In this document: positions 20,835-23,812 of the stretch, piece after piece | Layout: each line of letters begins with the position of its first letter | How positions within the stretch are numbered: the first letter of the stretch is position 1 | Source of the DNA: Nitrospirota bacterium | GTDB taxonomy: Bacteria > Nitrospirota > Thermodesulfovibrionia > Thermodesulfovibrionales > SM23-35 | Assembly (NCBI GenBank): GCA_013388435.1 | Contig: JACAFE010000050.1 | Location: 1 to 54,283, forward strand | DNA: 54,283 bases | Direction of reading: 5' to 3' | Made by a program: the position numbers and the translations under genes | Notes under the pieces: generated by a model | Database searches by the model: none | Seen by the model: only the letters and a program-made list of their open reading frames with translations | Told to the model about the DNA's origin: nothing

Positions 20835-20864
20835 ATTTTAACAGTTTTATGTTTTTCCTGTCAA
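20835..20864 (-). promoter_or_regulatory. Sigma-70 promoter of the rpsU-dnaG-rpoD operon
   Basis: On the minus strand a perfect -35 box TTGACA (20859-20864) and a -10 box TAAAAT (20835-20840, five of six matches) are separated by 18 bases. The predicted start lies about 30 bases before the rpsU ATG. It is the best promoter seen in the window. Confidence 0.65.
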
Positions 20865-20893
20865 TGTAAGTTCTTGCAAAAATTAATATATTA
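20865..20893 (+). repeat. 29-base shared upstream motif, copy 1
   Basis: The stretch reads TGTAAG, three variable bases, TTGCAAAAATTAATAT, A and TTA. It matches a second copy at 23784-23812 at 25 of 29 positions. This copy lies about 110 bases before the activator-like gene at 21003 and touches the -35 box of the rpsU promoter. It may include a -35-like TTGCAA or be a regulator site. Confidence 0.45.
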
Positions 20894-21002
20894 TGCTAAA
20901 TTTTTATGCAGTTAAAAATAACGGGAAATGATTTAAAAGATCATTCTCTATAAAATTCACACATACATTTAAAAATTAATAAATGTAATTGGGGGTATTT
21001 TT

Positions 21003-21989
21003 TTGAATAGATTATTAATTCCTCAACGTCCTGAATTTATGGGGAAAAGCTCAAAAATATTAAAATTCATAAGAGAGTTAAGAAAATTTGCTAATAATGA
21101 CAATAATATTCTTATAAAAGGAGAACCCGGAACCGGCAGGCAAGTCACAGCAAGAACATTACATAATTTAAGTCAAAGAAAAGACGGACCATTTATTATT
21201 GTTGATCTCTCATCTATGTCGCATGAAAAACAGGCTTTTTTAATTTCTAAAGAAGACAAAAAAATACAAAAACTCGAAAATCAGGAAAACATCTTTGAAA
21301 AAGCTATAAGCGGTTCTATTTTTTTTCTTGAAATTGCTGATATGTATCCCGAAGTTCAGACAGAATTTATTAAATTGATAAAGGATTCAATGATTGAAGA
21401 TGAAAATAAAAAAGATGTAAGAATAATATGTTCTACTGGAAAGGATTTAGAAAAAGAGGTGGAAAAAGGAAATTTTAATCAGGAACTTTATAAAATATTA
21501 AGTTCCTCAATTTTAAGAATACCTCCTCTTAGAGAAAGAAAAGAAGATTTAATTAATATTAGCAAATTCTTTCTTGATGAAGCATGTGAAAAGTTTGAAA
21601 CAGGCACAAAAGAATTCTTAAAGGACGCAAGAGATTTCATTTTAAAATATGATTGGCCTGGAAATACTCGCGAACTCGAGACCACTATTAAAAGAGCAGT
21701 AATTTTATCAGATTCCTCGGTAATTAGCAAAAAAGACTTAATATTGGATAATATTAATTCCTTTTCAATAAAAGAATTCCTCGAGGAAAAGCTTAAAAAA
21801 TACCTTATGGAAATGACCAAACTTGAAAATTGCAATTTATATGAGACTGTAATGAAAGAAGTGGAAAAATCATTGATAACCATAGTATTGAAAGAAACAG
21901 ATGGAAATCAGCTTAAAACAGCCAAAACACTCGGGATTAACAGAAATACTCTTCGCTCAAAAATAAAAGAATATAAAATAAAAATATAA
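21003..21989 (+). CDS. Degenerate NtrC-type AAA+ regulator with Fis-type helix-turn-helix
   Basis: This 328-residue protein has the overall bacterial enhancer-binding protein fold (PFIIVDLSS, RIPPLRERKEDL, YDWPGNTRELETTIKRAV) and an intact Fis-like HTH at the C-terminus (GNQLKTAKTLGINRNTLRSK). The ATPase site is damaged. Walker A is GEPGTGRQ (residues 40-47, Lys to Arg), the Walker B Asp is replaced in SIFFLEIAD (Leu109), the arginine-finger segment is ELYKIL, and the GAFTGA loop that contacts sigma-54 is absent. There is no N-terminal receiver. The start is TTG after GGGGGT. It is likely a DNA-binding regulator that does not activate sigma-54. Confidence 0.8.
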   Translation: MNRLLIPQRPEFMGKSSKILKFIRELRKFANNDNNILIKGEPGTGRQVTARTLHNLSQRKDGPFIIVDLSSMSHEKQAFLISKEDKKIQKLENQENIFEKAISGSIFFLEIADMYPEVQTEFIKLIKDSMIEDENKKDVRIICSTGKDLEKEVEKGNFNQELYKILSSSILRIPPLRERKEDLINISKFFLDEACEKFETGTKEFLKDARDFILKYDWPGNTRELETTIKRAVILSDSSVISKKDLILDNINSFSIKEFLEEKLKKYLMEMTKLENCNLYETVMKEVEKSLITIVLKETDGNQLKTAKTLGINRNTLRSKIKEYKIKI

Positions 21990-23783: not shown

Positions 23784-23812
23784 TGTAAGACGTTGCAAAA
23801 ATTAATATGTTA
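23784..23812 (+). repeat. 29-base shared upstream motif, copy 2
   Basis: This copy has the same TGTAAG-N3-TTGCAAAAATTAATAT core as 20865-20893, with four differing positions. It lies in the divergent leuC/biotin-carboxylase region, about 65 bases before the carboxylase ATG. A common transcription start or operator is possible. Confidence 0.45.

Follow-up and report, generated by a model that had tools for sequence, protein, structure and literature searches.

A degenerate NtrC-family protein of Thermodesulfovibrionales: a probable late intermediate between a two-component activator and a free Fis-like DNA-binding protein

What is left for a regulator built like a sigma-54-dependent activator to do when the motifs for ATP hydrolysis and sigma-54 contact have disappeared from it? 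This question is raised by an open reading frame of 328 amino acids with a TTG start on contig JACAFE010000050.1 (assembly GCA_013388435.1) of a Nitrospirota bacterium. The window, as we call the whole stretch that was analysed, comprises 54,283 nt. The genome (2.15 Mb, 98% complete) carries one rpoN and ten intact activators. A sequence-only reading had described the product as an enhancer-binding-like regulator without ATPase and sigma-54 motifs, and had proposed either a repressor or activator at sigma-70 promoters or an oligomer partner of a functional activator.

Domain state of the window protein

The window protein matched the Pfam families Sigma54_activ_2 (1.5e-25), Sigma54_activat (2.1e-25), AAA_lid_14 (3e-18) and HTH_8 (4.8e-13). 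NCBIfam pointed to an NtrC-type regulator (TIGR01818), with all models among the matches listed below the curated cut-off, and a PDB sequence search found ZraR (1ojl) at 9.9e-42 and also matched 7v2b. The AlphaFold model had a pLDDT of 81.8; when it was used for Foldseek, ZraR was the best match (2.6e-19) and PspF reached a TM score of up to 0.86 by target length. The AAA+ fold is predicted to be still intact. The AAA+ sigma-54-activator fold, the lid and the Fis-type HTH occur in this order (Pfam, Foldseek, intact orthologs), as expected of a homologue by descent of the bEBP/NtrC proteins.

The motifs were compared in an alignment of the window protein with its orthologs and with the ten intact paralogs encoded in its own genome. 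Walker A reads GEPGTGRQ instead of the intact GESGTGKE, and Walker B reads FFLE instead of FLDE, the Asp being replaced by Leu and the Glu being retained. Both Arg residues are gone from the arginine-finger segment (FNQELYKIL versus FREDLYYRF), sensor-1 reads CSTG rather than GATN, and the loop-1 motif GAFTGA, looked for in the alignment, is absent. PPLRERKED, WPGNTREL and the Fis HTH LGINRNTLRSKI are all intact. Every item of the sequence-only reading that was checked proved correct: the intact fold, PPLRERKEDL and WPGNTREL segments and Fis HTH (Pfam, alignment and Foldseek), and the GTGRQ remnant, the Asp-to-Leu change, the altered arginine-finger segment and the missing GAFTGA (alignment). 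A point that it had missed is the receiver, of which there is none in the window protein, with just 39 residues ahead of Walker A. The protein thus has neither the features of a functional bEBP, that is, a sigma-54 activator (Walker A GxxGxGK, Walker B DE, GAFTGA, arginine fingers), nor the receiver with a phosphorylatable Asp of a two-component response regulator, which was found in 0 of the 16 proteins of its family. It has no loop 1, as in the GAFTGA-less NtrC proteins acting at sigma-70 promoters, but it falls outside that class too, the receiver and the Walker residues being gone as well. The features are collected in Table 1.

Table 1. Features of the regulator gene and its surroundings, numbered from the first nucleotide of the window.
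Feature	Position	Strand	Basis
Sigma-70-type promoter of the divergent rpsU operon, TTGACA-N18-TAAAAT, TG before the -10	20835..20864	-	scan, 11/12 matches; footprint
29-base motif, copy 1; TTGCAA (20874-20879) lies 17 nt from TAAATT (20897-20902); probable promoter of the regulator gene	20865..20893	+	conserved upstream of orthologs; promoter inferred
Degenerate NtrC-family regulator (no receiver, dead AAA+ and lid, Fis-type DNA-binding domain)	21003..21989	+	Pfam, PDB search, alignment
Remnant Walker A GEPGTGRQ, residues 40-47	21120..21143	+	alignment; intact orthologs GESGTGKE
Site expected for loop 1/GAFTGA, residues 83-93, KEDKKIQKLEN, motif absent	21249..21281	+	alignment
Remnant Walker B FFLE, residues 107-110, Asp to Leu	21321..21332	+	alignment
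Former arginine-finger segment FNQELYKIL, residues 158-166, both Arg lost	21474..21500	+	alignment
Lid segment PPLRERKED, residues 174-182, intact	21522..21548	+	Pfam, alignment
WPGNTRELE, residues 218-226, sensor-2 region, intact	21654..21680	+	alignment
Fis-like DNA-binding and dimerisation domain, residues 248-328	21744..21986	+	aligns to Fis core; dN/dS 0.030
29-base motif, copy 2, upstream of the biotin carboxylase ORF (23850)	23784..23812	+	86% to copy 1

Fis is a dimer that binds and bends AT-rich, degenerate sites. Residues 248-325 of the window protein aligned to residues 19-96 of Fis in the PDB sequence search (E 8.5e-12), and with a profile of 23 C-terminal domains Fis was matched over residues 23-97 at 1.4e-17, the DNA-binding domain of NtrC at no better than 2e-4. 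Judged from these alignments, the retained domain is closer to the Fis core in its full length than to the corresponding domain of NtrC, and the likeness to the Fis family extends to both core fold and sequence over the whole domain. A naturally stand-alone relative (family f8, see below) found Fis at 1.5e-12, and the model of a short form (G012; pLDDT 80.6) had Fis as its best fold match, with 41% identity over 68 columns. The nearest paralog, L007, served as a weak control: no Fis chain was among its best 60 of 378 matches, but receiver and AAA+ chains occupied that list. When C-terminal domains were placed in a small tree, the ten paralogs were separated (87/96) from a side that contained both the Fis rows and these regulators, the Fis rows having been found with the peptide TLGINRNTL as seed and so being biased towards the group. 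L079, a response regulator, also matched Fis (3.3e-11); the Fis similarity is a property of the DNA-binding domain in a wider response-regulator subgroup and is not by itself proof of a nucleoid-protein role.

Erosion in the family and across the order

Orthologs were searched with residues 239-328 of the window protein as the query in the window's family, f1, which comprises 20 genomes (f1 to f13 are the family codes of the genome search service). The gene was present in 16 of them, encoding a protein of 320-377 amino acids in 12 and of 79-107 amino acids in four, lengths that depend on the start codons chosen. The complete receiver-AAA+-Fis form was found in none of the 16: the 12 longer proteins have a dead AAA+ domain, and the four short ones consist of the Fis domain alone. 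Walker A of the longer proteins contains GTYK in eight, GTCK in one, GTYR in one, and GTGR in the window protein and in that of G001. The sequence-only reading had asked whether the losses are conserved among orthologs, and they are: GxxGTGK and the second arginine finger occur in 0/12, GAFTGA in 1/12 (G013) and Walker B DE in 6/12, with the sensor-2 Arg and the lid conserved. Because these motif states differ among the 12 proteins, the losses form a graded series within one family, and because 12 of 20 genomes carry the AAA+-bearing form with no canonical Walker A among them, chance or an assembly error is excluded.

Three of the four short forms (G004, G005, G007 and G012) share their first residue, which coincides with the end of the lid. 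No AAA+ remnant was found within 3 kb upstream of the four, other matches there having E values of 0.6 or worse. None of the 16 matches contains an internal stop, and the short forms have proper starts. Stand-alone small Fis-like proteins are seen in these four genomes and in G026 and G038; the window protein, with its AAA+ remnant, is not one of them. Genes for a tRNA-guanine transglycosylase and a cation efflux protein directly follow three of the four short loci and also five family loci with a dead AAA+ domain (L049, L050, L067, L075 and L078); the window gene is not followed by this pair. In the gene tree, the position of the Fis-only forms was moderately supported (84/86), and the G007 form grouped with family f11, RpoB placing G007 at the base of f1; the tree retained a long, poorly aligned row (L094) that distorts the Fis-only branch, and we put no weight on that fork. 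Acquisition of a true Fis by horizontal transfer was rejected for the Fis-only genomes, as their proteins are 62-81% identical to the window protein and group with the orthologs of the order. Loss of sigma-54 as the cause of the erosion was likewise rejected, rpoN being present in 19 of the 20 genomes. The gene was missing from four of the 20, three of genus g2 and one that is 73% complete, and hence appears dispensable somewhere.

Two observations on sigma-54 in relatives stand apart from this series. One genome of f1 contains an operon-like run (L325:3806-14658; G015:C115:17805-28657) in which a 2296-aa ORF with RpoB and RpoC domains in one frame is followed by a 321-aa protein with a sigma-54 DNA-binding domain and then by a 661-aa protein with a sigma-54-activator AAA+ domain. 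From its domain content, the run resembles an additional, self-contained sigma-54 transcription system, present alongside the normal rpoB and rpoN. G018 also yielded a second, weak RpoN-like match (G018:C162:6774).

Across the order (Nitrospirota, Thermodesulfovibrionales), orthologs were found in 157 of 176 genomes at E<=1e-12, with exactly one match in 154 of the 157. Proteins were obtained from 149 of the matching genomes (150 proteins; 8 genomes were left out), and after removal of six proteins cut by contig ends, 144 were scored. Walker A Lys, Walker B DE and both arginine fingers were kept in 73, of which 66 also kept GAFTGA, and 71 were eroded. The intact proteins were distributed as 13/15 in f2, 2/13 in f3, 6/6 in f5, 2/2 in f6, 1/1 in f11, 27/29 in f12 and 22/22 in f13; none was found in f1 (16 proteins), f4 (10), f7 (8), f8 (2), f9 (5) or f10 (15). 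The motif calls come from one alignment in which a few may slip, and no family total hinges on an individual row.

The eroded forms differ in what they have lost. A receiver-like domain is joined directly to the Fis domain in f7 and in one f12 member, f8 consists of the Fis domain alone (103-105 aa), and f10 has no receiver and an AAA+ remnant shrunken to about 142 aa. The N-terminal domain is kept and the AAA+ domain broken in f4 and f9 (e.g. L243, L202). We also observed two eroded copies in one f2 genome, G139: a 177-aa protein with lid and Fis domain (L169:4433-4966) and a 413-aa protein with broken AAA+ motifs (L207). In Nitrospirae NC_groundwater_1765, a 191-aa protein (L094:7656-8231) closely resembles the f7 forms: it lacks AAA+, and an N-terminal part that matches no Pfam family is joined to the Fis-like domain.

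The states were mapped on an RpoB tree for which 59 of the 176 genomes were chosen, giving 58 usable rows (G023 had no match and G038 was just 38% filled); 57 of these genomes carry a state, G002 being without the gene. The intact or eroded state required 8 changes (7-8 in bootstrap trees), at least 6 of them forced by well-supported branches; receiver loss required 6 changes, and AAA+ loss 6, at least 5 of them forced. The gene has been eroded in about eight separate losses across the order, six of them forced by well-supported RpoB branches. A single ancestral decay was rejected on this count, and also since f7 lost the AAA+ domain and kept a receiver-like domain, whereas f10 and most of f1 did the reverse.

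Several other families have the complete receiver-AAA+-Fis response regulator as their ortholog, encoded next to a histidine kinase. Of 24 full-length named loci, 22 are immediately preceded by a kinase ORF belonging to one cluster, against none of 9 named f1 loci; the one member of this cluster that was checked has the arrangement PAS-HisKA-HATPase. Searching the 20 f1 genomes for that kinase gave a best-scoring match of just 36% identity, consistent with loss of the kinase in f1. Intact kinase-regulator pairs at L058, L059, L069, L072 and L088 adjoin rpoD-dnaG, as the window gene does; hence we regard these as one locus and not as a look-alike. The more distant outgroup regulators L079-L082 are intact, and the changes are therefore read as losses. 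From these comparisons it is quite probable that the window protein is a late intermediate on the way from a two-component, sigma-54-dependent activator (histidine kinase plus receiver-AAA+-Fis) to a free-running Fis-like DNA-binding protein.

Selection and the competing explanations

Between the window gene and that of G001 (dS 0.74), dN/dS was 0.232 for the AAA+ part, 0.104 for the lid and 0.030 for the linker and Fis domain, and 0.14 overall; the pair G009 and G018 gave 0.363, 0.132 and 0.077, respectively. Neighbouring genes showed 0.02-0.13, apart from rpsU, which is 100% identical and gives 0. In the single Fis-only pair that was measured (G004/G012), the ratio was 0.045 at a dS of 2.9, which is near saturation. 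In f10, the last 75 codons gave 0.04-0.09 and the rest about 0.21. Intact orthologs had 0.04-0.05 overall, with no contrast between the parts in f12 and f13; those of f2 showed a three- to fourfold contrast at a much lower level (0.013-0.015 vs 0.05-0.06). In f4, little contrast between the two parts was found (0.14 vs 0.16-0.24) despite the broken AAA+ domain. Selection on the eroded AAA+ domain is relaxed without being absent, and it is the DNA-binding domain that selection keeps. The core of the sequence-only reading, that ATPase and sigma-54 contact were lost and the DNA-binding part was kept, is supported by conservation, by selection and by the many orthologs.

At a dN/dS of 0.23, below 1, the dead AAA+ domain may have a role beyond a passive one. 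It is conceivable, if on balance unlikely, that the protein is a sigma-70 regulator in which the AAA+ domain still matters, through binding of a ligand or nucleotide without hydrolysis or through the oligomeric state. Besides the dN/dS values of both pairs, the fold predicted to be intact and the conserved sensor-2 Arg and lid speak for this explanation, and Rhodobacter capsulatus NtrC and its GAFTGA-less relatives are precedents, as described in PMC10274813. However, the window protein lacks the Walker A Lys, the Walker B Asp and both arginine fingers, different branches have lost different motifs, and 4 of the 16 family members do without any AAA+ domain.

The oligomer partner of the sequence-only reading, or a dominant-negative subunit, that would poison or tune one of the ten functional activators, is disfavoured as a conserved role and has in our estimation little probability. 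Ten intact activators and rpoN do coexist with it, and lid and core fold are kept; yet the closest paralog is only 37% identical, no paralog is a neighbour, the arginine-finger residues are lost, and the whole AAA+ domain is deleted in four of the 16 family orthologs and elsewhere in the order, the branches having lost different sets of motifs. A decaying gene on its way to loss, its DNA-binding part kept by inertia, hardly deserves credence: four of the 20 family genomes lack a copy, but the 16 matches contain no stop, the Fis-only forms start properly and have the low ratio given above, and at a dS of 0.74 the whole gene has a dN/dS of 0.14 and its Fis domain one of 0.03. A pseudogene was likewise rejected, the gene being conserved across genera and under purifying selection; of the finding by which the sequence-only reading was to be refuted, intact orthologs together with recent decay, the first part does exist in other families, whereas the losses are old and the gene remains constrained.

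Promoter context, mode of action and precedents

From the sequence comparisons, we most favour a Fis-like regulator that would bind DNA as a dimer and act at sigma-70 promoters without ATP or sigma-54, and the repressor or activator role at such promoters first proposed for the window protein is likely. The gene is divergent from rpsU-yqeY-nif3-dnaG-rpoD, and on its other side lie a RidA-like ORF, an aconitase-family gene and biotin-dependent carboxylase genes. The names yqeY, aconitase and carboxylase were checked by Pfam; the neighbours that we take to be rpsU, nif3, dnaG, rpoD and the RidA-like gene are named by assumption. A block TGTCAATGTAA(C/G)TTCTTGCAAA upstream of the gene is common to the window and to most of the rpsU-linked relatives compared. 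It holds the TTGACA-N18-TAAAAT promoter towards rpsU and, towards the regulator, a TTGCAA-N17-TAAATT-like promoter with TGn, which has 8 of 12 consensus letters and lies below the scan threshold.

The 29-base motif near the gene, suggested in the sequence-only reading as a starting point for the binding site, does exist, and its copy 1 is conserved in the family as part of this block. It looks like part of the gene's own sigma-70-type promoter and not like an operator. An operator role was rejected, since copy 1 lies in a conserved promoter block and a search upstream of the carboxylase in the sister genome (L047), allowing as many as 3 substitutions in the 16-base core of copy 2, gave no match. 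The comparison of upstream footprints revealed no operator for the regulator. Autoregulation at the divergent rpsU/regulator promoter may be offered as a suggestion from this arrangement. In the same window, a 38-nt inverted repeat (20816-20853/21975-22012, 71% complementary) flanks the regulator gene and is probably due to chance in AT-rich sequence, and the segment 35842-39440 holds ordinary neighbours, a MgsA/RarA-type AAA+ ATPase and a MutS2-like protein.

In the proposed mode of action, the receiver, the ATPase residues and the sigma-54 contact motif have been lost, as seen in the sequence, no kinase partner was found in the family, and the Fis-type domain has been retained. This domain would dimerise as in Fis and NtrC and would bind, and perhaps bend, DNA without ATP, phosphorylation or sigma-54. 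By occluding sigma-70 promoters or through an architectural effect on them, the protein would then influence transcription, and the dead AAA+ domain would serve as a scaffold at best. The promoter of the regulator gene itself, which diverges from that of rpsU-yqeY-nif3-dnaG-rpoD, would be the first candidate target.

NtrC proteins without GAFTGA that act at sigma-70 promoters are described for Rhodobacter capsulatus, Caulobacter and, as VspR, V. cholerae in PMC10274813. The NtrC proteins of Rhodobacter capsulatus and Caulobacter share with the window protein the NtrC descent, the missing sigma-54 loop and the sigma-70 promoters, and keep a receiver, phosphorylation and ATP binding being reported to matter. 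Unlike them, the window protein has no receiver, kinase partner, Walker A Lys, Walker B Asp or arginine fingers. VpsR/VspR of Vibrio cholerae (7v2b) is also an AAA+ regulator of the same fold without GAFTGA that acts at sigma-70 promoters; it binds c-di-GMP according to the title of 7v2b and, according to PMC10274813, keeps the conserved receiver Asp as a phosphate sensor. Its likeness to the window protein is one of fold and sequence match and does not imply orthology. NtrC/ZraR-type response regulators (1ojl, TIGR01818) represent the ancestral architecture, which orthologs in other families of the order still show; the window protein differs from it by loss of the activator motifs and the receiver.

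The core of Fis (E. coli 1ety/1fip; Pseudomonas PA4853, 6m10) aligns end to end with the retained domain, and the Fis-only relatives are of similar size. The gene neighbours differ, however, and the window protein is still fused to a dead AAA+ domain. The proteobacterial fis comes after neighbour-gene cluster 18, presumably dusB. Descent of Fis from an NtrC-type DNA-binding domain was proposed by Morett and Bork in 1998, as cited in PMC7166090 and PMC11407668. A dense, repeated series of such intermediates was not found in searches of open PubMed Central papers, as judged from their listings. What is already known is the existence of sigma-54-free NtrC proteins and the idea of Fis from NtrC; what appears to be new is the repeated series with its intermediates. 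To our knowledge, intermediates between an ATP-driven activator and a free DNA-binding protein have been lacking so far.

We tentatively raise the further possibility, of which we are less than convinced, that the gene is the order's counterpart of Fis. On this view, a response regulator with an already Fis-like DNA-binding domain would have repeatedly lost its kinase, its receiver, its ATPase and, in the end, the entire AAA+ domain. Free Fis-like proteins would then have been born more than once (in f1, in f8 and perhaps in isolated members of other families), by the route suggested for Fis of Proteobacteria and with living intermediates at every step. For annotation, the label 'sigma-54-dependent regulator' would be wrong for about half of the group (71 of the 144 scored proteins). 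The orthologous group comprises complete, half-dismantled and bare forms within one order, several of them at the same chromosomal place; consequently, the order of the losses and the point at which sigma-54 control was abandoned become testable by comparing natural proteins.
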